In this document: positions 13,029 through 38,433 of the stretch, one piece after another | Layout of the letters: each line of letters starts with the position of its first letter | Position numbering within the stretch: position 1 is the first letter of the stretch | Origin: Haloferula helveola | GTDB taxonomy: Bacteria > Verrucomicrobiota > Verrucomicrobiia > Verrucomicrobiales > Akkermansiaceae | Direction: 5' to 3' | DNA: 64,000 nt | Assembly: GCF_037076345.1 (NCBI RefSeq) | Contig: NZ_AP024702.1 | Location: 4,464,001 to 4,528,000, forward strand | The notes under the pieces: model-generated | What the model was told of the DNA's origin: nothing | Database searches by the model: none | What the model saw: the letters and a program-made list of their open reading frames with translations, nothing else | Made by a program: the position numbers and the translations under genes

Positions 13029-14030
13029 CTACGGCACTGGTGGTAACTCGATCACCGTGTCGCGATCACAGGTCAGTCGACCGTCTTCGACCCGTAGTTC
13101 CGCCATCTGGAGAAAGGATTTCTTCTGGGTGACCGTCCGCTCTTCCGCCGGAGGAGTCGGATACGGACGGTTCGGTTCGACGTGGTAAAACAGAAAGGCC
13201 CGTTCTCCGATCACCGCGACCGATGGATGTCTGGCCAGTGTCGCGTCTTCCTTACCGGATCCCGGATTCTCCAGGATCCGTTGCTGCATTGTCCACTTAA
13301 TGCCGTCGTTGCTGTGATATACCGCGAGTCCTTTGTGAGGATCGGTCAGCATCCACCACCGTTCGCGGAAGCGGAACACGTAGGGAGCCTCCTGATACCC
13401 GAATCCCCGTGCCTTCGTGTTGACTTCGCCCGGGCACTTGCCCCGGTTCTCCCACACCGACAGGTCCGTGCTGGTGGCCCATTGAATTCCTCCGTTCCCG
13501 CCGACACGGTAGTAGGCCCGGAATCCGTCATCGACTTTCACCAGCGACGCATCGATCGGATCGGGTTGTGCAAAATCGGGAACTCCTTCGAGTTTCCAGC
13601 CCTTGAGCAGGTCGTCCGCACTTGCCGAGTAGTGCCGGATCACGCCCTTGCCTCCCCATGGCGGTTTGGCGTTGTCCTTGTAGGTGACGAACATGTGGTA
13701 GCGATCGCCGTTCCGAATCACCGCCGGTGCCCAGAAGGTCACGGGCATGTCGGGTTTGCCTGCGACCCCGTCGAAGCTGCAGTAGCCGCGAAACTTCCAG
13801 GTCTCGAGATCCGGCGATGAGACAACACCGATTGGTGTGCCGACATAGGTGCCGGACTCCCGGGTTGCCCGGCGAGCGGTGTAGAAGATCCACCAGGCCT
13901 TCTCGTGCGTGTTCCAAACCACTTCAGGGTCACAGGATCCGTGGTAGTTGGGATCGGCGAAGAGCGGCTTGGGTGGGGCAGCCGCCAGCGTGATCGTTGG
14001 CAGCAGGAGAAGAAGAAGGAAGGATCTCAT
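13029..14030 (-). CDS. Secreted five-bladed beta-propeller glycosidase, GH43/GH117-like
   Basis: A 333-residue exported enzyme with signal peptide MRSFLLLLLLPTITLAA. The order of acidic residues fits the GH43-type five-bladed propeller: an Asp in CDPEVVW (residue 34), the FWAPAVI blade motif (~99-105), an Asp in DPIDASLVK (160) as likely pKa modulator, and a Glu in YQEAPYVF (214) as likely general acid. In this superfamily the enzymes release arabinose, xylose, galactose or anhydrogalactose units from glycan chains; the precise family (GH43, GH117 or a relative) cannot be fixed without a profile search. It is the last gene of the run of sulfatases and glycosidases, 76 bases after the beta-helix gene, and a GC hairpin follows it. 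It probably trims side chains of the same sulfated glycan. Confidence 0.8.
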   Translation of the reverse strand: MRSFLLLLLLPTITLAAAPPKPLFADPNYHGSCDPEVVWNTHEKAWWIFYTARRATRESGTYVGTPIGVVSSPDLETWKFRGYCSFDGVAGKPDMPVTFWAPAVIRNGDRYHMFVTYKDNAKPPWGGKGVIRHYSASADDLLKGWKLEGVPDFAQPDPIDASLVKVDDGFRAYYRVGGNGGIQWATSTDLSVWENRGKCPGEVNTKARGFGYQEAPYVFRFRERWWMLTDPHKGLAVYHSNDGIKWTMQQRILENPGSGKEDATLARHPSVAVIGERAFLFYHVEPNRPYPTPPAEERTVTQKKSFLQMAELRVEDGRLTCDRDTVIELPPVP

Positions 14031-14106: not shown

Positions 14107-15084
14107 TCAGTTGCCGCTCTTCGCGTCTCCTCCGCAACGGTAGCGGTTCAGGCGCTCCTGCGTTCCGCAGATGACGCGTCGGCCGTCGAATTGCGCAGTC
14201 CCGTAATCCTTCACCGCAATGTCCGCGCCGGTGATCTCAAGATCCAGACGCCCCTTGCCGTTCAGGTCGAAAAGTCGGGCATTGGGATTGTCGATCTTGA
14301 GTCCGTCGATCCGCACGGTCTTGCGGTCGGATCCTTCTTTCCACTGGAAGATCGGAGGAGTCTTGCTCCTTCCGCGGGTGCCGGTGATGACCACGTTCGA
14401 AATTTCGCTCTTCGAGTTCTGATACGTTCCCCATCCGAATTGGAAGGGCACACAGTTCTGGATCATCTCGATCGTGGTGTTCGTCACCGTGATGTCGAAG
14501 TAGAGCTTGATGGCGTCGTCGCCAGTAGCGAAGTGGCAGCCGTCGATGGTCGAGCCGTGCCCGCCAGCGAAGCCGTCGCTGTGGTTGGCCCAACCGCCGC
14601 GGTTGTCGATGAACGTGCACCCTTTCGCGTGACAGACCTTGCCCCAGCCGCGGATGAAGTAAGCGAACGGGTTGATCGCGGTCAGGTTGCTGACCGTCAG
14701 CACTCCGCCCCGGTTCTGGAACTGGCAGTATTCGAAGGGCTTCACGCCGCGGTTGTCGGCCCAGCGTTGCTCAGGGGTTCCGAAAACCACCGAGGTCTTG
14801 CGGTCCTCACCGGCGATGGTGCAGTCGAAGCGTGTGTGGAAGGCTCCGGTGACACGGACATCGCGGCCGATCACGATCCGCGAGACCTCCTTCGGCACAT
14901 CCCAGTAGGCTTCCTTGTGCGACGGTTTCTCGAACCGGATCGTTCCCGTGCTGGCGAAGGTGAGGGTGTGTTTGGATGCATCCCACTCGGCTCGCCCGGA
15001 GTAGTGCTTGATGAGCTCCGGAACGGACTGGGCCGATGCGGGAGTGGCATAGATCAGAGCCAGAACAAACAGGAAGGATTTCAC
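14107..15084 (-). CDS. Secreted right-handed beta-helix protein, GH28-like polysaccharide hydrolase
   Basis: A 325-residue protein started at GTG 15084, which opens on a signal peptide (KSFLFVLALIYATPASAQ); earlier in-frame starts lie inside the upstream sulfatase gene. The body has the repeating short-strand pattern of a parallel beta-helix (for example GGVLTVSNLTAINPFAYFI and GSTIDGCHFATGDDAIKL). Two signatures resemble the GH28 polygalacturonase active site: NHSDGF (residues 167-172, compare NTDG) and TGDDAIK (187-193, compare the conserved DD pair). The usual later GHG and RIK motifs are not obvious, so activity and family are uncertain; a lyase-like or non-catalytic beta-helix is possible. 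The gene is 14 bases from the upstream sulfatase stop, so it is co-transcribed with the sulfatases and probably acts on the same glycan. Confidence 0.75.
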   Translation of the reverse strand: MKSFLFVLALIYATPASAQSVPELIKHYSGRAEWDASKHTLTFASTGTIRFEKPSHKEAYWDVPKEVSRIVIGRDVRVTGAFHTRFDCTIAGEDRKTSVVFGTPEQRWADNRGVKPFEYCQFQNRGGVLTVSNLTAINPFAYFIRGWGKVCHAKGCTFIDNRGGWANHSDGFAGGHGSTIDGCHFATGDDAIKLYFDITVTNTTIEMIQNCVPFQFGWGTYQNSKSEISNVVITGTRGRSKTPPIFQWKEGSDRKTVRIDGLKIDNPNARLFDLNGKGRLDLEITGADIAVKDYGTAQFDGRRVICGTQERLNRYRCGGDAKSGN

Positions 15085-15098
15085 TGGAGGAAGCGGAC

Positions 15099-16718
15099 TC
15101 ACTTCTTGCGGCGTTTGGGCTTGGGATAGACATGGGCACCTTTTGCCCACTTCTCCCACGCGCCGGACATCGACCTGACCATGTCGGGCATGGTGGAGGC
15201 CAGGTTGTGCATTTCGGTCCCGTCCTTCTCCATGTCGTAGAGCTCCCAAAGGTTCATCTTGGGTCCGCCCGGAACGCTGACGCCCTTGCCGACTAGCTTC
15301 CACTTTCCGTCACGAACGAAGGCATTGTTTTCATGCTCGATAAAGATGGGTGACTTGCGGCCGAGCGATTTGCCATCGAACGCGGGAGTCAGTGAGACGC
15401 CGTCGATGGAAGTGATGCTGTGGCCGTCATGCTCCTTCGGATAGGTGGCACCCGAGACGTCGATCAGGGTTGCCATCACGTCGATCAGTTGGGCGGGCTC
15501 TCGATACCAGTCGCGACCCTTGCTGATCCGTGCCGGCCAATGGGCGATGAAGGGGGTGTTGGCGCCGCCTTCGTGGGCGAAGTGTTTGTATTGGCGATAC
15601 GGGGTGGCGGACGCGTTGGCCCAGGACTTTCCGTAGCTGGGCTTGGTGAGCGGTGTCTCGGGGGCGCGGTCCTTTACCGGGTCGCCGACTCCGGTCAGCG
15701 AGACTTCGGCGCAGGCACCGTTGTCGGAAAGGAAGAGAATCAGGGTGTTGTCGAAGTCGCCCGAGTCCTTGAGCGATTTGATGAGGTCGCCAATCTTTTG
15801 GTCGATCCGGTCAATCATTCCCGCGTAGGCCGCCATGCGTGCGCTTGATGCGGCACGGGTCGTCTCATCGACCTCGTTCCAAGCAGGAACCTGGGCGTCA
15901 CGGGGAGAAAGCGTCCAATGGGAAGGGAGGAGCCCCGATGCCTTCTGACGCTCGAATCGCTGCTGCCGGAGCTGGTCCCAGCCGCCGTCATACTTGCCCT
16001 GATACTTCGAGAGTTCCTCGTCGTGCGCATGGATGGGCCAGTGCGGCGCCGTGAAAGCGAGATAGAGAAAGAACGGATCGTCTTTCTTTTCGCCCGCCTC
16101 GTGGTCCTTGATGAATCCGATCGCGTGGTCGGTGAACGCATCCGTCGTGTACCATGGCCGGTCGGTGGTGCTCTTCAGCTCTTTGAGCGGCTTGTTGCCA
16201 TCGTAGATGATCCGCCAGTCGTAGGGATGGAAGTGGTGGGTCGCTCCGGAGATGCAGCCGTAGTAGCGGTCGAAGCCGCGCTGAAGCGGCCAGTCGTTCT
16301 GGTCGGTTCCGGCGAGGTGCCACTTGCCGGCCATGAAGGTCGCGTAGCCGGCCGACTTCGCGACTTCCGCGAGCGTGACGCAGGAGTCGTTGATGTTGCC
16401 GGCGTAGGCGGGCGGAATGTCGCCCGCCTTGCCCTTGTTCTCACCGGTCATGTGGCCGATCCCGACCTGGTGCGGGTGAAGCCCGGTCATCAGGGTTGCC
16501 CGGGTCGGGCAGCATCTGGCGGAGTTGTAGAACTGCGTGAAGCGGAGCCCGTTGGCAGCCAGCGAGTCGATGTTCGGCGTATCGATCTCGCCGCCCCACG
16601 CGCCGATGTCGGAGTAGCCCATGTCGTCAACCATGATCAGGATGACGTTCGGGCGTTCGGCGGCATTCAGGGCGGCCGTCAGGAGGCAACAGGCCGAGAG
16701 GAGGATTTGTCGGGTCAT
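15099..16718 (-). CDS. Secreted sulfatase (arylsulfatase A-like, S1 family)
   Basis: A 539-residue enzyme with signal peptide MTRQILLSACCLLTAALNA. The calcium site is LIMVDDMGYSD. The formylglycine motif C-C-P-T-R is at residues 69-73 followed by ATLMTGLHPHQVGIGHM, then GKWHLAG and FLSDNGACAEVS. The C-terminus is lysine- and arginine-rich (KPKRRKK). Its layout (GIGHMTGENKG, later ASATPYRQYKHFAHEGG) closely parallels the sulfatase half of the fusion gene at 19556-24550, suggesting duplication within the locus. It starts 17 bases after the stop of the upstream sulfatase and ends 14 bases before the beta-helix gene. Expected to remove sulfate esters from an imported or extracellular glycan; the substrate is unknown. 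Confidence 0.92.
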   Translation of the reverse strand: MTRQILLSACCLLTAALNAAERPNVILIMVDDMGYSDIGAWGGEIDTPNIDSLAANGLRFTQFYNSARCCPTRATLMTGLHPHQVGIGHMTGENKGKAGDIPPAYAGNINDSCVTLAEVAKSAGYATFMAGKWHLAGTDQNDWPLQRGFDRYYGCISGATHHFHPYDWRIIYDGNKPLKELKSTTDRPWYTTDAFTDHAIGFIKDHEAGEKKDDPFFLYLAFTAPHWPIHAHDEELSKYQGKYDGGWDQLRQQRFERQKASGLLPSHWTLSPRDAQVPAWNEVDETTRAASSARMAAYAGMIDRIDQKIGDLIKSLKDSGDFDNTLILFLSDNGACAEVSLTGVGDPVKDRAPETPLTKPSYGKSWANASATPYRQYKHFAHEGGANTPFIAHWPARISKGRDWYREPAQLIDVMATLIDVSGATYPKEHDGHSITSIDGVSLTPAFDGKSLGRKSPIFIEHENNAFVRDGKWKLVGKGVSVPGGPKMNLWELYDMEKDGTEMHNLASTMPDMVRSMSGAWEKWAKGAHVYPKPKRRKK

Positions 16719-16735: not shown

Positions 16736-18094
16736 CTACTTCTTCTTGTTCGCCTTCTTGCGCTTGCCGGGCATGCGGGTGAGGGCGAGTTCCTCGGTGG
16801 CCTGGCCTTCGTCACCCTGGGATTCCATCCAGACATCGAGCCGGCCGCGGAGCTCCTTGAGGACCGGCGCCAGTTTGGGGTCGTTGACGAGGTTGTGGCG
16901 GTTGAAGGGGTCCTTCACGCAATCATAGAGCTCCTCCGCGGGCCGGTGCAGATAGTCATGCGTGAGCTCCTTGGCGAGTTCGTCGCCCTTCTTGGCCTCC
17001 TCGATCCACGAGAGAAACGGTTCGGTTCCCGAGGCGATGTTCTTGAATGCCACGTCGGGACTGAGGTTCCGGACATAACGGTAACGTTCTCCTCGAACGC
17101 TGCGGATGCCATAGTGAACCGGTCCGGAGTGGATGCCCTTGGACGTCTGGAGGCTGTACACGTAGTCCTTGTGCGAGTCCTTTTCTCCCGTGAGGACGGG
17201 AAGGAAAGAGCGTCCGTCGAGGTTTTCGGGAGCGGTGGCTCCGGCCGCGTCGAGGAGGGTCGGGACAATGTCGACATACTCGACCATTGCCTCCGACTCC
17301 GAAGCCGGATCGACCTTGCCCGGCCATCGAACGACGCATGCGCTGCGGACGCCCTTGTCGTAGCAGGTCCACTTCGCGAATGGCAGTTGGTAGCCCTGTT
17401 CGCTGAGGATCATCACCAGAGTATTGTCCTCCAGTCCGTGCTTCTTCAGCGCCTCAAGCACCTCGCCGACCTGTGTGTCGAAGTAGGTGATCTCCGCAAA
17501 GTACGCCGCGAGCGCTTTGCGCGTCTCCGGTGTGTCGACCTGGATCGGGCTCAGTTCGATCTTCTTTGCAGGATAGGCCGACGCGTCTCCCTTGTTCCAT
17601 GGAGCGTGGGGTTCGTTCGAGGCGGCAACGAGCAGGAACGGCTTCTTCTCTTCGGCGCACTCACCGAAGAACTTCGTAACTGCCGCCATGTCCGGGTTGT
17701 TGTTGCCCGAGTATTCGAAGGGGAAGACCTTCTGCGGACCGATGTGCCGCTTGCCAGAAAGGTGGGTGCGGTAGCCGGCCTCCTGAAGGTGGTGGGCGAT
17801 GCTTTTGACCTCCGGGTAGGCCTGGGTGTGGTTCGGCCACGCGCCGGATTTCACCGGATAGAGTCCGGTGTAGAGATTGTGGCGGGTAGGGGAGCACATC
17901 GGCGCCGCTTGGAAGCAACGCTGGAAGGTCATTCCTTCCGAGCACAGCTTCTTCAGGTTCGGAGTCCTCGCCTGACCGCCATGGATCTCGAGATCTGTGA
18001 ACGTGCAGTCGTCCGCGATGATGATCACGAAGTTCGGCTTGGTCTGAGCGAGCGCGCCGCCAATGGATGCGAGCAGGACGAGTAGGAATCTCAT
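16736..18094 (-). CDS. Secreted sulfatase (S1 family)
   Basis: A 452-residue sulfatase with signal peptide MRFLLVLLASIGGALAQ. The metal site is IIIADDCTFTDLEIHGG. The formylglycine motif C-S-P-T-R occupies residues 67-71 within AAPMCSPTRHNLYTG. Later there are SGKRHIGPQ in place of the more usual GKWH, and MILSEQGYQLPFAKW, where EQG stands in the DNG position. This variant architecture is shared with the next gene upstream, so the two form a sub-group distinct from the GKWH/DNG sulfatases in the locus. Its ATG overlaps the upstream stop by four bases (ATGA), showing translational coupling. The C-terminus is rich in lysine (KRKKANKKK). Confidence 0.92.
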   Translation of the reverse strand: MRFLLVLLASIGGALAQTKPNFVIIIADDCTFTDLEIHGGQARTPNLKKLCSEGMTFQRCFQAAPMCSPTRHNLYTGLYPVKSGAWPNHTQAYPEVKSIAHHLQEAGYRTHLSGKRHIGPQKVFPFEYSGNNNPDMAAVTKFFGECAEEKKPFLLVAASNEPHAPWNKGDASAYPAKKIELSPIQVDTPETRKALAAYFAEITYFDTQVGEVLEALKKHGLEDNTLVMILSEQGYQLPFAKWTCYDKGVRSACVVRWPGKVDPASESEAMVEYVDIVPTLLDAAGATAPENLDGRSFLPVLTGEKDSHKDYVYSLQTSKGIHSGPVHYGIRSVRGERYRYVRNLSPDVAFKNIASGTEPFLSWIEEAKKGDELAKELTHDYLHRPAEELYDCVKDPFNRHNLVNDPKLAPVLKELRGRLDVWMESQGDEGQATEELALTRMPGKRKKANKKK

Positions 18095-19500
18095 GGTTTG
18101 CTGTCGAAACGGGGTTTGCCGTCCGCAGCCGCACGATACGACTCAGGCGTGTCGAGCTCTTTCCCGGGGTCGCCTTGTTCCGCCATCTTCTTTTCCAGAG
18201 CGGCGATCAGCCGCTGCTTCACCTCGGCATGCGCGGGGTCGTCCGCGAGGTTGGTCATTTCAAAGCGGTCCTCGGCGGTATGGTACAACTGCTCCGCGGG
18301 GCGTTGCATGTAGCGTTCGACCAGACGCAGCGTGTCCTCGTTCTGGAACGAATTGAACACCCAGGTCTGCCAGTAGGCGTTGTGTTCGGTCCTGCCCATA
18401 AGGTGCTTCTCGATGTAGAGGCGGTCGGGCATCAGGTTGCGGATGTAGCGCCACTCGCCGTCGGTGACCGAGCGGATCGGATACGATGGTCCCTCCGGGA
18501 AGTTGTTGTGCATGCCGTAGGCGAAGTCGCGGTGCGTGTCGGTTTCTCCCCGGAGCACCTTGGCGAAGCTCTTGCCGTCGAACATCTCCGGTTCGGGTTG
18601 TCCGCCGGCCGCCTCGATGAAGGTGGGGAGGACGTCGGCATACTGAATCACCGCGGGTGTCCGCTTTCCAGTCTCGGTGACACCCGGCCAACGCACGATC
18701 ACGGTCGTGTGCAGGCCGCTGTCCCAGTTGGTCCACTTGTTGCCCGGGAATTGGGATCCCTGCTCGCTGGTGAACAGCACAAGCGTGTCTTCTGCGTGCT
18801 TCTCGGTCTTGAGCAGGTCGAGCAGTTCGCCGACCTGCGAGTCCATATAAGTGATTTCGGCGAGGTAGTTACTGAAGTCCTTCCGCGTCACCGGTGTGTC
18901 GGCGAGGTAAGGCGGCAGCTTGAGCTTCTTCGGAGGATACGCGGTGGCGTCGCCCATCACCCACGGCACGTGCGGCTCGGTGAGTGCGACGACGAGGCAG
19001 AAAGGGTCGTCGGACTTGCGGATGAACGAGCGGGCTCCGTCGAGGCTGTGGGGTTGAGTGGGGCTTCTGACGCAGTTGCCGTCGAAGCCGGGCACGTTCT
19101 CGAACGGATAGACGCTCTTGGGTTTGACGTGGGATTTGCCGGCCAGACCGACACGGTAACCGAGCTTGCCGAGATGTTGGACGATGCTCAGCGTGCCGGT
19201 GCGGGAGGTGCCGTGGTTCCATGCGCAGCCATTCCGATGGGCAAGCCGGCCGGTGTAGAGTTCGGAGCGACAGGGTGCGCACATCGACATGCCGAGATAG
19301 GCTCGGTCGAAGACGAGACCTTCGCTTGCGAGTCGGTCGATGTTCGGTGTTTTCGCATTCTCGCCGCCGTTGACCGGAAGGTCGCTGAACGTGCAATCGT
19401 CCGCGATGATCACGAGAATGTTCGGCGAGTCCTTTGCGACCGCTGCGAAGGAGGAAAGGGCAAGGGCAGCGAGGACTGCCCAAGGGGTCTTGGGTTCCAT
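18091..19500 (-). CDS. Secreted sulfatase (S1 family) with C-A-P-C-R active-site motif
   Basis: A 469-residue sulfatase started at the ATG at 19500, which opens on the signal peptide (MEPKTPWAVLAALALSSFAAVA). The metal site is VIIADDCTFSDLPVNGG. The formylglycine motif reads C-A-P-C-R at residues 74-78, which satisfies the general CxPxR rule but has Cys where Ser or Thr is usual. LAGKSHVKPKSVYPFENVPG and LFTSEQGSQFPGNKW replace the usual GKWH and DNG segments, as in the adjacent downstream gene (18094-16736). Those shared variants indicate a recent duplication or a shared sub-family. It lies 55 bases after the stop of the triple-domain fusion gene and overlaps the next gene by four bases. Confidence 0.9.
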   Translation of the reverse strand: MEPKTPWAVLAALALSSFAAVAKDSPNILVIIADDCTFSDLPVNGGENAKTPNIDRLASEGLVFDRAYLGMSMCAPCRSELYTGRLAHRNGCAWNHGTSRTGTLSIVQHLGKLGYRVGLAGKSHVKPKSVYPFENVPGFDGNCVRSPTQPHSLDGARSFIRKSDDPFCLVVALTEPHVPWVMGDATAYPPKKLKLPPYLADTPVTRKDFSNYLAEITYMDSQVGELLDLLKTEKHAEDTLVLFTSEQGSQFPGNKWTNWDSGLHTTVIVRWPGVTETGKRTPAVIQYADVLPTFIEAAGGQPEPEMFDGKSFAKVLRGETDTHRDFAYGMHNNFPEGPSYPIRSVTDGEWRYIRNLMPDRLYIEKHLMGRTEHNAYWQTWVFNSFQNEDTLRLVERYMQRPAEQLYHTAEDRFEMTNLADDPAHAEVKQRLIAALEKKMAEQGDPGKELDTPESYRAAADGKPRFDSKP

Positions 19501-19555
19501 GGGTTTGGATTGGGGTTGGGCCGGAGTCCGCCGGTGCGGGCGATTCTCCCGGTGA

Positions 19556-22500
19556 TCAGTGCGGGAACTTCTGCACTTCGTCCGGGCCGGGAGTCGCGTA
19601 GGCGGGGTCCTTTGCGCGGATGAAAATGTCGCCGTCATCAAGAACCCTTACGTCGAGAGGGACGATGGTTGTTCCACGCTGGTTGATCGTCTGTGCCGTC
19701 TCGGCGAGGTCACGGGACTCGATGCCGTCCCGTGGCAGCGGCGGAACATTGGCGTTGAAGAAGGCGGTGCACCACCATTTGCCGTCGCGGGTCTGGAAGG
19801 GAGTGCCGTGACCAAGGAAGCGGCCGGCAAATTTCCGGGGGCCATAAGGGCCGGTGATCTTGTCGGCGACGCAGTAGTAGAGGTTGTAGGAGCCTTGGCG
19901 GCCTTTGTCGGTCGACCACGCGGTGCCGAGGTGGACGTATTTGTCGCCGATCTTGAGCATGGTCGCGCCTTCGTGGCCGATGCGGGATATCGGGTTGCCG
20001 TCCGGCCCGGGTCGCGAGCCCGATGGGTCGATCCGGACGGGCTTGCCGGTGAATTTCGAGAAATCGGACGAAATCGGGGTCACGCGCGTGTTTTCCGACA
20101 GCACCCACCACCGGTCTCCGTCATGGAAAAGCGAGGGGTCGTGATGGCCTGCGAACTTCCTGCCCATCGGGGAGCTCCATGGACCGCGAAGCTCCGGGCC
20201 GGCGGAAAGCATGAGGTTGGACTTCTGTTTCGGGCAATGAACGAGCGCCCATCGGTCCATCTCGGGAATCCAGTGCATTTCCGGGGCCCAAACCCGATCG
20301 CCGGGTTTCGGGTGAGCGCTGTCCTTGAGGGTGAAGGGGGTTCCTAAGTAGTCCCAATCGATCAGGTCCTTGCTGCGCCAGACGCGCACGGTATTGCCGA
20401 CGGCCGAAGTTCCGCTGAGACCGATGTTGTAGGGGTCGGTTTCTTCGCGCGGATCCTCGTCGTTGATGGTGGTGCCCGTCAGGTAGAAGAAGTCATCGGG
20501 GCCGAGGGTGATGTAGGGATCGCGGATCCAGCCTTCCTTGATGTAGAGCGCGCGGTCGTGGGATCTCAGTCCGGCTTCGATTTCGGCGCGAGGCATCGCA
20601 GGTGCGACTGGTGCGACCTTGGCGGTCGGGATCGCAACCGGCGCCATGCCTGCGGTTTCCGGATCACCGGTGATGCCGGCTTTGCGGTGGATCTCCGCGA
20701 GCGCTTCGGGCGCCAGCTTACGGACCTTGCGGTCATAGGTGATCAACCCGTTGATCTCGCCCTCGACGTCGGTCGTCTGGGTGTAGATGCCTGCGGCGAT
20801 GCCCTTGTTCCGGAGGTCGGCGAGCATGGAGATCGAGGTCTTGTAGCGCTCGATCCACTCCTCCTTGTTTTTCGGCAGTCCGCCGTATCCCCAGTTGCGT
20901 GCCTTGACGTCCCAAAGGTGCCCCTTCACGGGGAAGCCGTGACCACCGAACTCGCCCACAACCTTCACGAAGTTGTCGAAGCGTCCACCTTCGCCGAGTT
21001 CGAAGGGAAAGCCGGGGTGGGGGTACTGGTGGTGGTCGATGATATGGCCGACGGGGAAGAAGTTGCCGCCGGACGCGACATTCACCTGGCGGGTTGGATC
21101 GTAGGCGACCGTCCACTTGCCGACGACTTCGGTTCGGTGCTGGCCCCACGCTTCGTTGAAGGGCACCCACTGGACGATGCAAGGGTGGGGTTGGAGGGTG
21201 TCGATCATGATGCCCAGCTCCTTCATATACTGGGAGTGATCGGCGTCGGGCCACTTGGCGTCGGAAGGATTGGGCTGAAGCCGGGTCCACTTCGGGCTCA
21301 CGTGGCCGTCCCGCTGTTTCCCGGTGCCCGAGGACACCTGATCCTGCCACATCATCATCCCGAGCCGATCGCAGTGGTAGTAGTAGCGCCGGGGCTCGAC
21401 CTTAATGTGCTTGCGGATCGTGTTGAAGCCGGCGGTCTTGAGGAACTCGATGTCGGAGACCATGGCCTCATCCGATGGCGGAGTCAGCAAACCGTCGGGC
21501 CACCAACCTTGGTCAAGTGTTCCCCAGTGAAAGATCGGCTTGCCGTTGAGAAGGAAGCGCAAGTGGCCCTTGTCGTCCTTGGCGACGGTCGACTCACGGA
21601 TGCCGACGTAGGAATGGACGACGTCGTCGCCGAAGCGGAGCTCCACGTCGTAGAGAGTGGGGGAATCCGGCGACCACAGTATGGGATCGGGAATCCTGAC
21701 ACCGGCTTGTTTGGCTGTGCCGGTGGTTGCCGCGATCGCCTTGCCGTCGAGCGAGACCTTGATTTCCACCATCGTGTCGCCGGCGTCGCCTTCCGTGTCA
21801 AAAGCGAAACGGATGTTGCCGTCGATGGTGGTCGTCACCTTGTGGCTGACCAGGTGTTTCTCCGGAACCGTTTCCATCCAGACGGTCTGCCAGATGCCGG
21901 AAACCGGCGTGTACCAAATGCCGCCGGGCTTGCTCACCTGCTTGCCGTGGAGTTGGAAGGCGGTGTCGGTCGCGTCGGTGACCTTCACGGTCAGCTCGTT
22001 CTTGCCGGGCTTTAGGGCATCCGTGATGTCGAAGCTGAATGGCAGGTTGCCGCCGATGTGTTCGCCGACCATCGTGTCGTTGACCCAGACCGTGGAGTGG
22101 TAGTCGACGGCTTCGAAGTTCAGGAGCTTGCGCTGTCCATTGGCCAGTTTGTCGGCCTCGAAGGAGCGGCGGTACCAAATCGCGTCCTGCGGTGTGATCC
22201 GTTTTCCGACGCCGGAGAGGGATGATTCGATGGCGAAAGGAACGAGGATGTCACCCTGCCACTTGGAGGGTGCTGCGTTCGAATTCTTGGGAGCGACCGC
22301 GTATTTCCAAAGGCCGTTGAGATTGGTCCATTGCTTGCGGGCGAATGCCGGGCGCGGGTATTCGGTCCACGCGTCCTCCGGCTTCAGCTTCTCGCCCCAC
22401 TCGGTCATCATGGCCGAGGTGGCCTTGCCGTTGTTCGGAGCAGCAACCTCGGCAGCAGCCACGGGGGCGCCCTCTTCGACCGTGGCGGTGACGATGGTGC

Positions 22501-24550
22501 CTCCTGTGAATCGGTTCGGAGCCGGATAGTCGCCTGCGGAAGTCAGGGTGTCCTCGCCGATGCAAAGCGGATCCTTGGGTTGGTGCGGGATGAGTCCGGG
22601 CGAACGCATCGTGACCGACTCGCCGCCGTCGACCGCGAGTGTCATCGTTGCCGGGTCGAGTTTGGCGACGATCCTCGTGTTACCCTTGACCGGTTTCTTG
22701 CAAGCGAGTCGTGTGACCTTCCCGTCCACGCGCACATCGAAAGCGGGCCGACCTTCGATCAGGTGGAGCGCGATACCGTGCTCCACCCCACCTTGGGAGA
22801 GGATGACTCCATGGGGTCTGCCGCCTTTGATTTCGGCAATGATCGAGAGGGGTCGATTGACAATGAGCGAGGTTTCCGGAGCGGCCGTGGCTTCCTTCTT
22901 GGGCTTATCGAACGGTTCGGCACCCACCTTGCGCGCCCATGTTTCCCACTCAGCTACCAATTCATTCAGGATTTCGGGCTTCTCCGCCGCGAGATCATGC
23001 TGCTCGGACCGGTCGTGAGCGAGGTTGTACAGTTCCCAACGAACTTCTTCAGGCTGACGCTTGCCCCACACGATCTTCCAGTCGCCGCGACGCAGTCCCC
23101 GTGCTTGCTGGTGCTCGATTGGAATCGAACGGACGGCGAGAGGTTTGCCCGCCGCCGCACCGAGGATGGACACACCGGAGACCGGTTGGATCTCGGTGCC
23201 TTTCCGTTTCTCAGGGTAGGCAGCGCCCGTGGCCTCGCAGATGCTTGGCACGATGTCCATGATGTGCGAAGGCTCGGTGACGAATCCATCCTGCTTCTTC
23301 AGACCGTTCGGCCAGTGGACGATCAAAGGCGAAGCGATTCCACCCTCGTGGCAGAAGTGCTTGTACATGTCCAAAGGCGTGTTGCCTAGGTTCGCCCAGG
23401 CCGAGCCGTAGGAATGGTGCGTGCCGTCCTGGCCCATTTTCGCGAGGGCGGCCCCGGTGTGGAGGGTGGTAATGCCCCGGCGGGAGTGTTCGTCGAATCC
23501 AAAGGGGCCCCACTCGTAGCAGGCTCCGTTGTCGCTGGTGAAGAATATCAGCGTGTTGTCGAGTTCACCGTTCTTCTCGAGGTCCGCGATGATGCGTCCA
23601 ATCCCTTGGTCGACGTGTTCGACCATCGCCGCAAATGTGGCCATCCGGCGGGCGAGATCCTCGCGTCGGTCGGCGGGGAGAGAGTCCCATGCCGGGTTCG
23701 GCTTGCCGGAGAAGCCGTTGGCGATGTCCTCGCGGTCGACCGGGACCTGCGCGCGCGGAGGAAGCTCCGCATCGGCCGACACCAGTCCGAGTTTCTTCTG
23801 GCGCTCGAAACGTTCGGAGCGCAGAGCGTCCCAACCGCGGCGGTAGGTGTCGACATGGCGGTCGATGCTCTCCTTCGGGGCCTGGATGGGGAAGTGGGGT
23901 GACGAGTGGGCGAGATAGAGCAGCCATGGTTTCTCCTTGTTCTCACCGGTCCGAGCCTGGCGAAGGAACTCGAGGGCGTAGTCGGAGAAGACATCGGTCA
24001 CGTAGAACTCGTCACCGGGAACCAAGACTTCCGGCTTGGTGCCTTGGGGAAGACGGACGTAGAGATCCGGATCCCATTGGTTCTCGGAGTGCGCCTGGAA
24101 ATTCTTGTATCCATAGTAGTTCTGGAAACCCCGCTCGATCGGTCCGGGGTCACCCATGTGCCACTTGCCGACCATCCAGGTCGAGTAGCCGGCATCTCCG
24201 AGGATTTCGGCAACTGTTGCGGTGTTGGGCAACAGGTGGCCGGTGTAGGCCGGGCTGGAGTTTTTCCGAGGCTCCCGGGTGGTGAACGAACCGATGCCGG
24301 CTTCATGCGGATGAAGACCGGTCACGAGGGATGCTCTGGACGGACAGCAACGGGCCGAATTGTAAAACGCGGAGAATTTGGCTCCTCCCGAGGCGAGGCG
24401 GTCGAGGTTCGGAGTCGCGATTTCCGATCCGTAGCAAGAGAGGTCGGAGAAGCCGAGGTCGTCGGCGAGGATGACAAGGACGTTCGGCCGATCTGCGGCA
24501 TCCGCGGTCACGGCCAGCAAGGCCGCCGCGAGTAGGGCAAAGGGTTTCAT
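19556..24550 (-). CDS. Triple-enzyme fusion: sulfatase + GH2 + GH43-like glycosidase
   Basis: One continuous 1664-residue reading frame. I start it at ATG 24550 because this opens on the signal peptide (MKPFALLAAALLAVTADA). Residues ~20-550 are a complete sulfatase: metal site VILADDLGFSD, formylglycine motif C-C-P-S-R at 68-72, GKWHMG, FFTSDNGACYEW. Residues ~560-690 form a beta-rich module like those at arylsulfatase C-termini. Residues ~714-1300 are a GH2 enzyme with sugar-binding, immunoglobulin-like and TIM-barrel domains; FNEAWG gives the acid/base Glu1133 and VVGEFGG the likely nucleophile Glu1200. Residues ~1322-1664 are a GH43-like propeller with Asp1344 (RDPYITL), WAPEMHW, Asp1471 (HHDPSLF) and Glu1527 (GHEGATML). 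Pro/Ala/Val-rich linkers (~692-705 and ~1301-1320) join the parts. It heads the operon and probably desulfates and cleaves one glycan in sequence. Confidence 0.93.
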   Translation of the reverse strand: MKPFALLAAALLAVTADAADRPNVLVILADDLGFSDLSCYGSEIATPNLDRLASGGAKFSAFYNSARCCPSRASLVTGLHPHEAGIGSFTTREPRKNSSPAYTGHLLPNTATVAEILGDAGYSTWMVGKWHMGDPGPIERGFQNYYGYKNFQAHSENQWDPDLYVRLPQGTKPEVLVPGDEFYVTDVFSDYALEFLRQARTGENKEKPWLLYLAHSSPHFPIQAPKESIDRHVDTYRRGWDALRSERFERQKKLGLVSADAELPPRAQVPVDREDIANGFSGKPNPAWDSLPADRREDLARRMATFAAMVEHVDQGIGRIIADLEKNGELDNTLIFFTSDNGACYEWGPFGFDEHSRRGITTLHTGAALAKMGQDGTHHSYGSAWANLGNTPLDMYKHFCHEGGIASPLIVHWPNGLKKQDGFVTEPSHIMDIVPSICEATGAAYPEKRKGTEIQPVSGVSILGAAAGKPLAVRSIPIEHQQARGLRRGDWKIVWGKRQPEEVRWELYNLAHDRSEQHDLAAEKPEILNELVAEWETWARKVGAEPFDKPKKEATAAPETSLIVNRPLSIIAEIKGGRPHGVILSQGGVEHGIALHLIEGRPAFDVRVDGKVTRLACKKPVKGNTRIVAKLDPATMTLAVDGGESVTMRSPGLIPHQPKDPLCIGEDTLTSAGDYPAPNRFTGGTIVTATVEEGAPVAAAEVAAPNNGKATSAMMTEWGEKLKPEDAWTEYPRPAFARKQWTNLNGLWKYAVAPKNSNAAPSKWQGDILVPFAIESSLSGVGKRITPQDAIWYRRSFEADKLANGQRKLLNFEAVDYHSTVWVNDTMVGEHIGGNLPFSFDITDALKPGKNELTVKVTDATDTAFQLHGKQVSKPGGIWYTPVSGIWQTVWMETVPEKHLVSHKVTTTIDGNIRFAFDTEGDAGDTMVEIKVSLDGKAIAATTGTAKQAGVRIPDPILWSPDSPTLYDVELRFGDDVVHSYVGIRESTVAKDDKGHLRFLLNGKPIFHWGTLDQGWWPDGLLTPPSDEAMVSDIEFLKTAGFNTIRKHIKVEPRRYYYHCDRLGMMMWQDQVSSGTGKQRDGHVSPKWTRLQPNPSDAKWPDADHSQYMKELGIMIDTLQPHPCIVQWVPFNEAWGQHRTEVVGKWTVAYDPTRQVNVASGGNFFPVGHIIDHHQYPHPGFPFELGEGGRFDNFVKVVGEFGGHGFPVKGHLWDVKARNWGYGGLPKNKEEWIERYKTSISMLADLRNKGIAAGIYTQTTDVEGEINGLITYDRKVRKLAPEALAEIHRKAGITGDPETAGMAPVAIPTAKVAPVAPAMPRAEIEAGLRSHDRALYIKEGWIRDPYITLGPDDFFYLTGTTINDEDPREETDPYNIGLSGTSAVGNTVRVWRSKDLIDWDYLGTPFTLKDSAHPKPGDRVWAPEMHWIPEMDRWALVHCPKQKSNLMLSAGPELRGPWSSPMGRKFAGHHDPSLFHDGDRWWVLSENTRVTPISSDFSKFTGKPVRIDPSGSRPGPDGNPISRIGHEGATMLKIGDKYVHLGTAWSTDKGRQGSYNLYYCVADKITGPYGPRKFAGRFLGHGTPFQTRDGKWWCTAFFNANVPPLPRDGIESRDLAETAQTINQRGTTIVPLDVRVLDDGDIFIRAKDPAYATPGPDEVQKFPH

Positions 24551-24679
24551 GATTGGTCTGGGTTGAGGAATGGGTCGCCCATGGGCAGCATGGGCGGCCT
24601 GTGTGCCGTTCGGAAGGGTATTTCGGGTCACGGCCCGCTGTTCCCATCCAATGACGCCGATTCGGTCATCGAGCCGGGA

Positions 24680-26074
24680 TCAGTCCGCGGCCGTGATCAC
24701 GCGGATCTCGTCGATCGACTCGCCGGCATTGAAGATCACCGAAACGGTTTTGCGGTCCGACGAGAGCGTGACGGTGTCGGGCATGGTGCGGATGCCGGCT
24801 TCAGGGCCCCGCATCCCCGGATTCTCCTTGGTCAGAGGCAGCGGGGCATTGGTGGTGATTTTGTCGGTCTCGAAAAGCTTGCCGGTCGAAGTGATGATGC
24901 CGAGCACCGGCCGGTCGAAGGTGACCGAGCCCTCGAAGCTTTTGAAGACCATGAAGTCGAGGATCCCGACCGGGTTGTAGCGGAGCAGGTAGCTTCGAGC
25001 GCGGGTGCCTGCCTTGCTTTCGAGAGTCGACGGGCTGTGGATCGGAGCGCCGGCTTTGCCGCCATGGCTACCGGGTTCGGTGATGTCCACCGGCAGGCGC
25101 TCGGGAAGGACGAAGGACCGCTTTTCGGGGATGACGATCACGTGGTTGTCATCCTCGTGGTTGGCCACGGCTTCCGGTGTGTTGGGCGGCGCCGGGATGA
25201 CTTCTCCTTCGGTTGATTGGATGCCCGAGGCGATCGGCCAGGTGCGGGAGAATGCAGACGGTTCGAAGGCGAGATCGCTCAGGCCGGCGCCTCGGGTTGC
25301 CCGGACCGCTCCTCCTTCGAGCAGGTTGCGTTGGTCCTTGCCGGAAGACACGGTCACTTCGCCGTCGAGGACCATGAAGTCCGCCGAGCCGTCGGGTGAT
25401 GCGGACACCCCGAAAGAGGTTCCGAGGTCGGTAAGGGTCGCGGACTTCGTGTCCACCCGGAAGCCGTGCGCGGTCTCTGGGCACCACGCGTTCAGGTTGC
25501 CGGACTTGAGCCCGATTTCCATCGGCGAGCGGACCGTGAATTCCGCGGGGCCTTCGACGGCGACGACGGCACCGTTCCCGAAGTCGAGGCGCATCATGCG
25601 GCCGACTTCCAACTCGATCTTCTGGCCGGCCTTGATGATCTCCGATCTCGCGAGCTCATCGCTGGTGCCGGGCAGGTGGACGGCGACCGCGACGCTTTCC
25701 ACGGGTTTCCGGTTGAGTAGGACAAGGGGGACGGTCGCGAGTGCGACACAGGCTGCCAGTGCGAGCACCGCCTGCTTGCGGAAGCGGTCTCGCCGGATCT
25801 TGCGGGTGATCCGTTCCGGGAAGCGGGCGACCGGCTCGTCGCCCACGGCCCGCAGGTGGTTCGAGACGGCGTGGGAGAATCGCTCGTCGCTGAACTCAGG
25901 ATTGGTCCGGCTCAATGCGCCGGACACCACCAATTGCTCCTGTAGCTTGGCCCGGAGTTCCGGATCTTCGCTGACGAGTTCGGTGAGTCGGGCGCGACCG
26001 GCCTCATCAAGCGAGCCGTCCAGCAGTTCGCAGCACAGGTCCTCGAAAGTCGGTTCCGTGGGATTCGTTTCCAT
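24680..26074 (-). CDS. FecR-type anti-sigma factor / sigma regulator, membrane-anchored
   Basis: A 464-residue protein. Residues 1-80 form a short helical cytoplasmic region (FEDLCCELLDGSLDEAGRARLTELVSEDPELRAKL), the zinc-less sigma-binding type found with Planctomycetes and Verrucomicrobia ECF factors. One transmembrane helix spans ~101-120. A FecR-like beta domain covers ~150-270 (AGQKIELEVGRMMRLDFGNGAVVAVEGPAEFTV ... VDTKSATLTDLGTSFGVS), and an uncharacterised extracytoplasmic domain follows. It begins 4 bases after the sigma factor stop, so the two are a regulatory pair. It would hold the sigma factor inactive until an envelope or substrate signal arrives. No TonB receptor gene is adjacent. 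Its position just upstream of the fusion gene makes the sulfatase operon its likely target; that link is inference. Confidence 0.85.
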   Translation of the reverse strand: METNPTEPTFEDLCCELLDGSLDEAGRARLTELVSEDPELRAKLQEQLVVSGALSRTNPEFSDERFSHAVSNHLRAVGDEPVARFPERITRKIRRDRFRKQAVLALAACVALATVPLVLLNRKPVESVAVAVHLPGTSDELARSEIIKAGQKIELEVGRMMRLDFGNGAVVAVEGPAEFTVRSPMEIGLKSGNLNAWCPETAHGFRVDTKSATLTDLGTSFGVSASPDGSADFMVLDGEVTVSSGKDQRNLLEGGAVRATRGAGLSDLAFEPSAFSRTWPIASGIQSTEGEVIPAPPNTPEAVANHEDDNHVIVIPEKRSFVLPERLPVDITEPGSHGGKAGAPIHSPSTLESKAGTRARSYLLRYNPVGILDFMVFKSFEGSVTFDRPVLGIITSTGKLFETDKITTNAPLPLTKENPGMRGPEAGIRTMPDTVTLSSDRKTVSVIFNAGESIDEIRVITAAD

Positions 26075-26078
26075 GGCT

Positions 26079-26621
26079 TCAGGTGGCGTCGTGGACCTTG
26101 TGGGCGTGGAGGCAGGTGGCGAGAGCCTGTCTTGCGTTGAATAGCACCTTGCGCACCGCGACCGAACTCATTTCAAGCTCCTCGCCGATCTCGGTGGCGT
26201 TGCGATCTTTGAAGTATCGGGCATCGACCACTTTGCGGGCGCGGTCGGTCAATTTCTCGAGGCAGGCGCGCAGGGCCGTGTGGCGAAGGTCGGCATCCTG
26301 AAGGGAGCCGGGAGCAACTTCGGTCGGGGTCGAGTCGATCAGCAGGGTGGTCAGATTCTCATCGAGAAGCCGTTGGCGCCTCCCGGATTTGTTGAGCTCG
26401 TTCATGACGAGATTGCGAGCGATCCTCCGAAGCCAGGGGCCGGCGTTGGCCGGATCATCGAGCTCATCCCATTTCCGGTAGGCGATAAGGAATGCCTCCT
26501 GGGCGATGTCATCCACCCACGCGCTGCTGACGCCCAGCGAGCGGATGAAATAGCGCAGGCTGGAGTGGTGCTCATGCACGGTCCGGTCGACCTCCTGAAG
26601 TTTGACCTTGGTGGATTTCAT
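26079..26621 (-). CDS. ECF RNA polymerase sigma factor (Rhodopirellula/Verrucomicrobium family)
   Basis: A 180-residue sigma factor. The ATG at 26621 gives a normal ECF length; the longer frame upstream runs antisense through the divergent DUF502 gene. Region 2 lies at ~15-85 (YFIRSLGVSSAWVDDIAQEAFLIAYRKWDEL ... WLRRIARNLVMNEL) and region 4 at ~115-170 (CLEKLTDRARKVVDARYFKDRNATEIGEELEMSSVAVRKVLFNAR). These match the sigma-70 family described in Rhodopirellula and Verrucomicrobium. It is paired with the membrane FecR-like gene 4 bases downstream, which would control it. It is transcribed divergently from the DUF502 gene, with 144 bases between the start codons. Its regulon probably includes the downstream sulfatase operon, but no promoter motif could be tested. 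Confidence 0.9.
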   Translation of the reverse strand: MKSTKVKLQEVDRTVHEHHSSLRYFIRSLGVSSAWVDDIAQEAFLIAYRKWDELDDPANAGPWLRRIARNLVMNELNKSGRRQRLLDENLTTLLIDSTPTEVAPGSLQDADLRHTALRACLEKLTDRARKVVDARYFKDRNATEIGEELEMSSVAVRKVLFNARQALATCLHAHKVHDAT

Positions 26622-26765
26622 GGGTTCCTCTGCCAGAGGGATGTTGTCGGACAACCCGGTGTTCCGGGGAAAGTGCGAATTTCCAGCGGGTTTGGCGGGC
26701 ACGCTGGACCGTCCGCCTCGCTCTGCCATGCCTTGCCAAGTCCGCGGACCTCGCTTTTCATTGTC

Positions 26766-27515
26766 ATGTCGATGGACGAGTCGTTCCGCTCCCAAGATCC
26801 GAATGCCGGGCACCCCGGTATCCGCAAGGCATTCAGCACCCTCTTGGCAGGTGTCGCATCGGTCGTGCCCGTGCTTGCGACCGTCTGGCTTCTCGTCCTC
26901 GTCTACAAGATCCTCGGGGATCTGGGGAACAGCATCATCGCCGGGGTTTTCCGGTTCCTGAACTGGCTCCGCGGGGTCCATCCCGAGGCTCCCGGGGCAT
27001 GGTCATTCGAGTTCCCGGGGTCGAACTTGGTGCTCGCCCTGCTGCCGGTACTCATTCTTTTTGCGGTCGGCTTCGCGGTGACCAATGCCCTCGGCCGGCA
27101 TCTGCTGCACTGGATTGAAAGCAAGATCCAGAAGCTGCCCCTGCTCGGATTCGTCTACTCGTCGATCAAGCAACTTGTCGACGCGCTCAAGAGCTTGGGT
27201 TCGGAGCGAAAATTCAAGGGAGTCGCCTACGTCGAATACCCGTCACCCGGTTGCCGCCTCCTCGGGTTCGTGACGGGGAATTTCCACGACGAACAAATGG
27301 GCAAGGACGTGACGGCGGTCTTTCTGCCGACAGCCCCGAATCCGCTCACCGGTTTCGTGGTGATCGTCGAAGACGAGCGGGTGCACAACAGCAACATGTC
27401 GCTCGAGGAGGCGAGCAAGCTGATCCTTTCCGCAGGGTTGGTGTCGCCGGCGGTGGAGAAGACCGCCGCGGAGAAGCAGCCCAAAAAGGAACCCGAGCCT
27501 GCGACCGCGCCCTGA
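26766..27515 (+). CDS. DUF502 family membrane protein
   Basis: A 249-residue inner-membrane protein started at ATG 26766 (an ATG two codons later is equally possible). Two hydrophobic spans near the N-terminus (GVASVVPVLATVWLLVLVYKIL and LVLALLPVLILFAVGFAVTNALG) are followed by the conserved DUF502 core: KIQKLPLLGFVYSSIKQLVDALKS, then a soluble domain with VAYVEYPSPGCRLLGFVTG and AVFLPTAPNPLTGFVVIV. The C-terminal tail is rich in Lys, Glu and Ala. The family is widespread and has no established function. It converges on the fumarase gene, with 15 bases between the two stops. Confidence 0.9.
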   Translation: MSMDESFRSQDPNAGHPGIRKAFSTLLAGVASVVPVLATVWLLVLVYKILGDLGNSIIAGVFRFLNWLRGVHPEAPGAWSFEFPGSNLVLALLPVLILFAVGFAVTNALGRHLLHWIESKIQKLPLLGFVYSSIKQLVDALKSLGSERKFKGVAYVEYPSPGCRLLGFVTGNFHDEQMGKDVTAVFLPTAPNPLTGFVVIVEDERVHNSNMSLEEASKLILSAGLVSPAVEKTAAEKQPKKEPEPATAP

Positions 27516-33029: not shown

Positions 33030-33887
33030 TCAGTCGCGTTCGAGCGTGTTGCCGACGGTAGTCCAACCGCTGGCCGGCTTTACCGGCCAGCCGGGATCCT
33101 TGGGTGTCCAGACGTGACCGTTGAGCGACGGTCCCAGCCACGCAGCCCACCAGCTGAACGAGCTGTTGGCGACGATCGCGTGTTTGCAGGCGGTCATCAG
33201 CCGGAAGTCGACCAGTTCGTCATTGGCTTCCTCGTGGAAGCGGACGGTTCTGCCACCGAAGTCCAGTTGCTTCCGGGCCCACGCGATGTCATCGCCGAAG
33301 ACTTCGAAGCACGGAGAGTCCAAGGCTTCGGAAGCGAGTTCGATACTGCGCTTGTAGTAATCGGCTCCGAGTCGGGGTGAGTAGCGGTTCCTCCGGACGT
33401 GGACGAAGACCGCGTTGCGGTCTCGCATCCGCTGCTCGAGTTCAAGGTCGCCCTGTTTTTCGAGTGCGGGTGGCTGGAGCTCCTCCCGGATCTTCCCGGT
33501 GGCATCGCGGAAGTAGGCTTCGTTTTGCCAGTATCCGTTGAGGTAAACGGTGTCGCGGACCGGGTCGAAATCGAGCAGTTGGAGCGATCCTTCCTTTTCC
33601 GGCAGGTAAGCCTTCCATTTCAACGGCAGCACCTTGTTCAGCGAGCGCTTCGATTTGTGGCGAAATCCTTTCGGATCGCCCAGACGCAACGCGGCCGGAG
33701 CGGGACGGGCCTCGATCGGAAAGTGCTTCAGGCGGAAAGATCGGCCATAGCCGTCGCGGACAAAGCCGGACGCATCATCGATAAACAACTCCCGTCCGCT
33801 CCGGAGCGCGAAGGCTCTCGCTGCGGCGTAGCCGAAGAGCTGGTTGCCGAGCCCCCCTTTGATGATCGCGACCGCTTTCCGACTCAT
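33030..33887 (-). CDS. Alpha-1,2-fucosyltransferase-like glycosyltransferase, GT11
   Basis: A 285-residue enzyme with the GT11 hallmarks: GGLGNQLFGYAAARAFA at the N-terminus, HVRRNRY in the middle (motif I, binding GDP-fucose) and IVANSSFSWWAAWLG near the C-terminus. It would transfer a deoxyhexose, typically fucose, in alpha-1,2 linkage to a surface glycan from the cytoplasmic side. The ATG overlaps the upstream SGNH gene by four bases (ATGA), so they are translationally coupled. It is the last gene of the glycan-decoration set at 33030-38395. The donor and acceptor are inferred from the family. Confidence 0.9.
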   Translation of the reverse strand: MSRKAVAIIKGGLGNQLFGYAAARAFALRSGRELFIDDASGFVRDGYGRSFRLKHFPIEARPAPAALRLGDPKGFRHKSKRSLNKVLPLKWKAYLPEKEGSLQLLDFDPVRDTVYLNGYWQNEAYFRDATGKIREELQPPALEKQGDLELEQRMRDRNAVFVHVRRNRYSPRLGADYYKRSIELASEALDSPCFEVFGDDIAWARKQLDFGGRTVRFHEEANDELVDFRLMTACKHAIVANSSFSWWAAWLGPSLNGHVWTPKDPGWPVKPASGWTTVGNTLERD

Positions 33888-35044: not shown

Positions 35045-35047
35045 GGA

Positions 35048-36586: not shown

Positions 36587-36596
36587 GCCGTGCGGC

Positions 36597-38395: not shown

Positions 38396-38433
38396 CCGGT
38401 GACGGCGATGCTGCGGGACGGGCGAGTGAACGG

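Follow-up and report, generated by a model that had tools for sequence, protein, structure and literature searches.

We analysed a 64,000-nucleotide stretch of Haloferula helveola DNA (contig NZ_AP024702.1; hereafter the window) and found that one of its genes joins three intact carbohydrate-active enzymes in a single polypeptide: a family S1 sulfatase, a glycoside hydrolase (GH) of family 2 (GH2) and a glycoside hydrolase of family 43 (GH43), with a laminin-G-like (LG) module between the sulfatase and GH2. The fusion of the three enzyme modules is real. Sulfatase-GH and sulfatase-LG fusions are already known; the three-enzyme chain is new and recurs in other genomes, and the trees support more than one joining of its modules. 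We think it somewhat probable that the product is a secreted, four-module desulfating furanosidase for a sulfated glycan bearing galactofuranose or arabinofuranose (Galf/Araf).

The gene is one frame on the minus strand, running from an ATG at 24550 to 19556, with 1664 codons, a stop codon and no internal stops, in agreement with an earlier note on this DNA that had described a single 4995-base frame. The plus strand of the same interval is interrupted by stops in the frame translated. An alternative GTG at 24631 would lengthen the protein by 27 amino acids. Third-position GC lies between 0.67 and 0.85 throughout the frame (450-base windows). The domain-profile check that the note had proposed was run on the 1664-residue protein, and the Pfam Sulfatase, GH2 and GH43 profiles each matched above their curated cut-offs. 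Cys68, Glu1133, Glu1200, Asp1344, Asp1471 and Glu1527, which it had named as catalytic, are all present at those positions and conserved, and its claim that one chain holds three intact enzymes stands. The list of three modules was incomplete, because a fourth, LG-like module (residues ∼555–700) had been overlooked and was revealed by the predicted fold. Likewise, the Pro/Ala/Val-rich linkers said to join the enzymes were found at residues ∼696–713 and 1296–1320, but most of the region from the sulfatase to GH2 is the LG-like module.

The sulfatase profile (PF00884) matched residues 22–442 with an E-value of 1.5e-56. The C/S-x-P-x-R motif of family S1 is present as Cys68-C-P-S-Arg72, and the formylglycine position is occupied by Cys in 36 of the 38 aligned sequences (the window's among them) and by Ser in the other two. 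Asp30, Asp31, Pro70, Arg72, Lys129, His219, Asp340, Asn341 and Lys397 were kept in all 38 sulfatases and His131 in 37; these ten are motif positions or metal and sulfate ligands of family S1. The closest solved relatives of the module are 7all (E 1.1e-98) and 1hdh (E 5.2e-88), the latter presumably a Pseudomonas arylsulfatase. 7ALL is BT4683, an S1_4 enzyme with 3S-Gal as its substrate (PMC10154620) and, according to PMC10154612, an endo mode of action. For the S1_4 enzymes that PMC10154620 lists, the targets are 3S-Gal and 6S-Gal in mucin glycans. Judged by its best solved relative, the sulfatase module is therefore closest to S1_4 enzymes. Two Bacteroidales relatives (L120 and L121) have Ser in place of Cys at the formylglycine position, in sulfatase frames near 9320–11020.

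The LG-like module was visible mainly as a fold. Pfam Laminin_G_1 gave an E-value of 0.0072 on the fusion protein, under the cut-off, and a sequence search of the region against the PDB gave no match. An AlphaFold model built from an alignment of 12 copies (mean pLDDT 83) had as its best Foldseek matches the LG-like domains of agrin, perlecan and laminin (for agrin, E 1.4e-6, probability 1.00 and TM 0.65 on the query), consistent with an LG/LNS jelly-roll fold between the sulfatase and GH2.

Three Pfam matches account for the sugar-binding, Ig-like and TIM-barrel domains of a GH2 enzyme: Glyco_hydro_2_N (PF02837, residues 743–894, E 5.6e-17), Glyco_hydro_2 (PF00703, residues 939–985, E 1.1e-5, above cut-off) and Glyco_hydro_2_C (PF02836, residues 1027–1161, E 3.3e-8, above cut-off). 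Like the two catalytic glutamates, Asn1132 of the N-E motif is kept in 35/35 aligned sequences. Among solved structures, 7sf2 ranks first (523 bits, E 5.6e-156); the Streptomyces β-D-galactofuranosidase 9j6n scores 373 bits (E 1.4e-110) and 7xyr 236 bits, all three aligned nearly end to end, after which scores drop to 97 bits for the next match, a β-glucuronidase. The top structures of GH2 group III are 9j6n and 9j6m (GH2_18) and 7xyr (GH2_19). The last is a β-glucuronidase by its PDB name and uncharacterised according to PMC12243196, which ties furanosidase activities specifically to group III. Thr1257 and Thr1260, in a Y-T-Q-T-T-D stretch that aligns with Y-T-E-I-T-D of 9j6n, are kept in 35/35 sequences; both are candidates for the Thr that group III has for the subsite −1 Trp, the choice being unsure in an alignment with no Trp-bearing enzyme. 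These matches point to a module of group III (GH2_18/GH2_19) type, predicted to be a furanosidase. The β-galactosidase or β-glucuronidase activity suggested for it earlier found no support and is judged unlikely, given 373 bits to 9j6n against at most 97 outside group III together with the literature on that group; furanosidase assays therefore suit this module better than galactosidase or glucuronidase assays.

Pfam Glyco_hydro_43 matched residues 1342–1595 (E 7.9e-15), and the catalytic Asp, Asp and Glu sit in a predicted five-bladed propeller. Five AlphaFold models were obtained, with mean pLDDT values of 70.9, 58, 39, 37 and 36, and the first was used (pTM 0.77). It matched 3kst by Foldseek (E 1.6e-13) and, by VIA-align, the α-1,2-arabinofuranosidase 3qed (Z 25.1, rmsd 2.9, 262 residues aligned); matches within 1 Z of this best value count as ties, and xylosidases are among them. 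The best NCBIfam match reached 20.9 bits against a cut-off of 500. The sugar removed by the GH43 module would be of furanosyl type or perhaps of xylosyl type. In one otherwise open GH2-GH43 frame (L075:3439-7104, plus strand), the catalytic base Asp of GH43 is replaced by His.

The same order of modules was found in one frame in three other genomes, as the database search proposed in the earlier note might reveal. A search of 195 genomes of the family, among them the window's, gave the whole chain in two: that of the window and a same-family metagenome-assembled genome (MAG; G008, locus L047), whose chain of 1660 amino acids, also in one frame, is 68% identical over window residues 6–1661. Across 288 genomes sampled from the phylum, at a threshold of E 1e-160, no genome but the window's matched over the full length; G200 matched over residues 8–1289. 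Scanning a genome collection with the GH43 alignment (the tool describes 84,980 species, and contigs under 3 kb are excluded) yielded 129 GH43 relatives; the 80 best were retained, so fusion counts are lower bounds. Before counting, we excluded modules of less than 36% (sulfatase), 34% (LG), 40% (GH2) or 50% (GH43) identity, or covering less than 75% of the query module. The sulfatase, LG, GH2 and GH43 modules share one frame in L047, in L067 (Planctomycetes bacterium CA13, 1710 amino acids) and in L099 (a Phycisphaeraceae MAG, 1867 amino acids). Pfam Sulfatase, GH2 and GH43 all scored above cut-off in these three chains, and their sulfatases are of the window's own type (59–72% identity). The remark that no characterised enzyme has this order agrees with the literature in so far as it was available, while uncharacterised proteins with this order do exist.

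Related modules are widely shuffled among bacteria. We found the orders GH2-LG-GH43 (L076 and L077, near-copies of each other), LG-GH43 (L081 and L084) and sulfatase-LG-GH2 (L034), and a more distant sulfatase (∼24% identity) joined to LG and GH43 at 14 of the best 80 of 129 loci. Three further arrangements were noted. Rhodopirellula europaea 6C encodes a sulfatase-LG-sulfatase-GH43 chain of 1586 amino acids with two different sulfatases (L069:2344-7101, plus strand). A sulfatase-LG protein at L035:9795-13202 (minus strand) has ∼430 C-terminal residues that by eye resemble a PQQ-type propeller. At L068:766-1612 (plus strand), two short frames with sulfatase and LG pieces lie 5′ of an intact GH2-GH43 frame and represent a broken gene or a sequencing error.

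In the same-genus relatives L042 (Luteolibacter marinus) and L083, a sulfatase-LG gene adjoins a separate GH2-GH43 gene, the product of which has its own signal-peptide-like start just before the sequence that follows the linker in the window. By a simple hydrophobicity rule applied to stop-to-stop frames, not SignalP, such a stretch precedes the first module in 19 of 21 unfused GH2-GH43 or GH2-LG-GH43 frames without a sulfatase, compared with none of the four fused junctions. The two frames that do not show it are L082, cut by the contig at its N-terminus, and L113; L070, whose GH2 is cut by a contig, failed the identity and coverage limits and is therefore not among the 21. A sulfatase of at least 56% identity lies directly upstream of 7 of the 14 unfused frames that have at least 2.8 kb of upstream DNA.

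Quick trees were made for GH43 (84 rows) and GH2 (35 rows), and the pairs for testing were picked after the trees had been viewed. The four fusions require four changes on either tree, at least three of them by well-supported branches for GH43 and all four for GH2. A single clade of the four fusions was rejected by the approximately unbiased (AU) test on the GH43 tree (p 0.00077) and on the GH2 tree (p 8.4e-6). The window and L047 as one clade were rejected by the GH2 tree (p 3.0e-5), and for L067 with L099 the GH2 test was borderline (p 0.052). Most planctomycete GH2-GH43 chains have an extra stretch before GH2, guessed by eye to be a β-sandwich, that is kept in L099 and missing from the window, L047 and L067; this also speaks for separate joining events. 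Against separate origins, the GH43 tree allows the window and L047 to share one (AU p 0.447). One ancient fusion followed by many splits is also formally admissible, since the trees cannot polarise the changes, but the signal peptides favour fusion. Taken together, the sequences suggest that the modules were joined on at least two separate occasions, probably on three or more.

Table 1. Location of the fusion gene, its modules and catalytic residues, and its neighbours in the window
Feature	Position	Strand	Basis or remark
Whole fusion: signal-peptide-like start, S1 sulfatase, LG-like module, GH2, GH43	19556..24550	-	1664 aa
Signal-peptide-like N-terminus, ∼residues 1–19	24494..24550	-	Sequence and simple hydrophobicity rule
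S1 sulfatase, residues 20–545, closest to S1_4 enzymes	22916..24493	-	Pfam PF00884 and solved relatives
Cys68, formylglycine position, motif C-C-P-S-R	24347..24349	-	Alignment of 38
Laminin-G-like module (predicted fold), residues ∼555–700	22451..22888	-	AlphaFold model and Foldseek
Ala/Pro/Val-rich linker, residues ∼696–713 (feature 701–713)	22412..22450	-	Sequence
GH2 enzyme, residues 714–1292, predicted group III (furanosidase) type	20675..22411	-	Solved-structure matches
Glu1133, GH2 acid/base (N-E motif)	21152..21154	-	35/35 aligned sequences
Glu1200, GH2 nucleophile	20951..20953	-	35/35 aligned sequences
Pro/Ala/Val-rich linker, residues 1296–1320	20591..20665	-	Sequence
GH43 five-bladed propeller (predicted), residues 1321–1664	19559..20590	-	Pfam and predicted fold
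Asp1344, GH43 base	20519..20521	-	83/84 aligned sequences
Asp1471, GH43 pKa modulator	20138..20140	-	84/84 aligned sequences
Glu1527, GH43 acid	19970..19972	-	84/84 aligned sequences
Sulfatase, closest solved relative S1_8A, next gene downstream	18091..19641	-	Overlaps fusion gene; true start probably inside 19641
Sulfatase	16736..18094	-	
Second S1_4-like sulfatase	15099..16718	-	43% identical to fusion residues 5–553
GH159-type furanosidase gene (GH43 by Pfam)	13029..14030	-	7zei Ch_Gaf159A, E 1.1e-43
FecR-like protein (anti-sigma type), upstream	24680..26074	-	Pfam FecR E 6.5e-5, 23.7 bits vs cut-off 24
Sigma-70-family factor, upstream	26079..26981	-	

Downstream of the fusion gene lie three more sulfatase genes and a gene of GH159 type (Table 1). 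The GH159-type protein aligns with Ch_Gaf159A over positions 18–327 of 333, and D19, D142 and E190 of that enzyme, located by counting in the alignment, have aligned counterparts. These three residues are catalytic by mutation, and GH159 enzymes split p-nitrophenyl (pNP)-β-D-galactofuranoside and, more weakly, pNP-α-L-arabinofuranoside (PMC9278983). The gene at 13029–14030 is the only GH159 relative found in the window's own genome. In a Pirellulales MAG (L065:809-3622, plus strand), an S1_4-type sulfatase is joined to a GH159 part 70% identical to that of the window, directly upstream of a GH2-GH43 gene. In L031, L033 and L056, a gene for GH2-GH43 or for GH43 is followed by relatives of the three downstream sulfatases (65–74% identity) in a different order; L029 and L030 have relatives of the FecR-like protein and the sigma factor at the corresponding position. 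The sulfatase at 16736–18094 had no solved relative at 1e-40, and the gene at 14107–15303 yielded nothing beyond a weak match to a dextranase (E 1e-4). At L145:433-2634 (minus strand), a GH159-type domain (residues 67–377) is followed in one frame by a part that by eye resembles a TIM-barrel glycosidase.

The window's genome (5.68 Mb) matches Pfam Sulfatase at 1e-10 in 135 places, some of them two pieces of one gene, and has three places of the FGE-sulfatase family, some members of which make formylglycine. No GH domain was found at E 1e-4 in 15 other sulfatase frames (all 14 others of more than 1000 amino acids and one of 924); one of these has an acetyl xylan esterase/peptidase-like match and several have laminin-G or Ig-like domains. 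Elsewhere in the window, a 1717-residue frame with PATR repeats, autotransporter-like, lies downstream of the sulfatase cluster (7603–12756, minus strand); genes for a family 11 glycosyltransferase, an MBOAT acyltransferase and an FkbM methyltransferase are grouped at 33030–38518 (minus strand) in a manner resembling surface glycan synthesis; and a 1861-residue frame (58307–63892, plus strand) has no Pfam match at 1e-5.

We infer the chain's export, activities, order of action and substrate, as well as the role of LG, as follows. The fused chain, with its signal-peptide-like start, would be exported, and Cys68 would be converted to formylglycine so that the S1_4-like sulfatase could strip sulfate from a galactose- or furanose-containing glycan, close to which the LG-like module may hold the chain. 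Acting with retention, GH2 would then release an exposed β-D-galactofuranosyl or α-L-arabinofuranosyl residue; acting with inversion, the GH43 propeller would take off a second residue, of furanosyl (or xylosyl) type. The glycan may, as the earlier note predicted, carry a sulfate that blocks both a GH2 and a GH43 cut. The chain probably formed by the joining of neighbouring genes whose separate products act on the same glycan. Coupling desulfation to glycoside cleavage in this way would have a precedent in P36, an S1_25-GH78 protein in which the two domains catalyse successive steps on ulvan oligosaccharides; because these domains were analysed separately, the available text shows no benefit of tethering (PMC8511951). 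Desulfation by BpS1_8 is needed before BpGH43_24 acts on sulfated arabinogalactan protein (PMC8406133), and by analogy sulfated arabinogalactan proteins are candidate substrates of the fused chain, no more. More tentatively, and with greater doubt than belief, we suggest that a repeatedly re-assembled enzyme line (S1_4, LG, GH2 group III, GH43 and GH159) strips an undescribed sulfated, Galf/Araf-bearing glycan, with one exported chain channelling as many as three of the catalytic steps; the open-licence literature, as far as available, yielded no such pairing of glycan and enzymes.

Several results weigh against a desulfating furanosidase acting on one glycan. The S1_4 enzymes of PMC10154620, in the text available, act on mucin 3S-Gal and 6S-Gal and not on furanose sugars. 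The GH43 module is 12–22% identical to the solved GH43 chains listed, a level from which no subfamily is named. In the remaining 7 of the 14 unfused frames whose upstream DNA is long enough, no such sulfatase is the neighbouring gene on that side. The full chain occurs in three of the best 80 of 129 relatives; as most kept relatives do without it, function does not depend on the fusion. A search of 12 genomes gave GH159 relatives in five, with two of these at 35–39% identity, and gave none in the genomes of L047 or L042. The first of these points would fit a pyranose glycan, for instance a sulfated galactan, as the primary target, with GH2 and GH43 trimming β-galactose or β-xylose, as would the β-xylosidases among the structural matches of the GH43 model, the PDB name of the group III structure 7xyr and the NCBIfam β-glucuronidase and β-galactosidase models that match, all far under their cut-offs. 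We regard a pyranose target as improbable, given the gap in GH2 scores between 9j6n and chains outside group III, the furanosidase activities specific to that group in the available text of PMC12243196, and the GH159 type of the neighbour gene.

The modules could also be independent cargo, made in equal amounts and exported together, with three activities directed at different parts of the glycan and a sulfate that blocks neither cut. Since relatives of the modules are also found alone, as pairs or arranged differently (GH2-LG-GH43, LG-GH43, sulfatase-LG-GH43 and, in L034, sulfatase-LG-GH2), their order is loosely constrained, and the linkers are Pro/Ala-rich. Yet all four full fusions carry the window's own type of sulfatase, and the position of this type directly upstream in 7 of the 14 unfused cases with enough upstream DNA is more specific than co-export requires; we hold independent cargo possible, with more doubt than confidence. 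A missed stop or a frameshift might be suspected of having merged two or three genes into one, since the same-genus relatives keep sulfatase-LG and GH2-GH43 as separate genes and the frame is known from the assembly, not from raw reads. However, an assembly error is unlikely because three other genomes also have the modules in this order without a break in the frame, namely G008/L047 at 68% identity as well as L067 and L099; none of the four fused junctions has a signal-peptide-like stretch, and third-position GC is continuous along the frame. An artefact of assembly or annotation was accordingly judged very unlikely, the least credible of these alternatives. The desulfating furanosidase is our preferred reading.

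Enzyme fusions reveal activities that belong together. That one sulfatase type has repeatedly been fused and shuffled with GH2 group III, GH43 and GH159 modules points to a shared sulfated, furanose-bearing glycan, presumably used by Verrucomicrobiota and Planctomycetota, and the substrate class proposed for the fused chain is specific and testable. The natural fused and split proteins form a ready set for asking whether tethering a sulfatase to the hydrolases that follow it speeds degradation.

Among characterised proteins, the best solved relatives of fusion residues 20–545, BT4683 (7ALL) and 1HDH, were solved as lone sulfatases, whereas the fusion sulfatase continues into the LG module. The GH2 group III furanosidases, represented by the Streptomyces sp. 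JHA19 β-D-galactofuranosidase (9J6M/9J6N; GH2_18), match the fusion GH2 over nearly their full length and share with it the N-E acid/base, the nucleophile Glu and Y-T-x-x-T-D; the aligned solved chains consist of GH2 alone (588–612 residues), and the specificity of the fusion GH2 is a prediction from sequence. Ch_Gaf159A (7ZEI), the closest solved relative of the gene at 13029–14030 and alike in its three mutated catalytic residues, has its counterpart outside the fused chain in the window's genome but joined to the same sulfatase type in L065. P36 of Formosa agariphila resembles the fusion in having an S1 sulfatase and a glycoside hydrolase in one chain; it differs in combining two enzymes, not three, namely S1_25 and a GH78 rhamnosidase with ulvan as substrate, and the available text of PMC8511951 mentions no LG module, of which the fusion has one. 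For the Planctomycetes strains P1 and P2 from Porphyra, the number of multi-domain sulfatase genes was estimated at 34 and 21, respectively; these genes were attributed to gene fusion, and the partners are most often glycoside hydrolase and hypothetical domains and in some cases laminin G (PMC4807772). These are like the fusion in joining a sulfatase to glycoside hydrolase or laminin G domains, and that account, as available, names no sulfatase-LG-GH2-GH43 order and reports no assay. No sulfatase-GH2-GH43 enzyme was found in the open-licence literature to the extent available, and set against the known sulfatase-GH and sulfatase-LG fusions, what is new is hence the three-enzyme chain.

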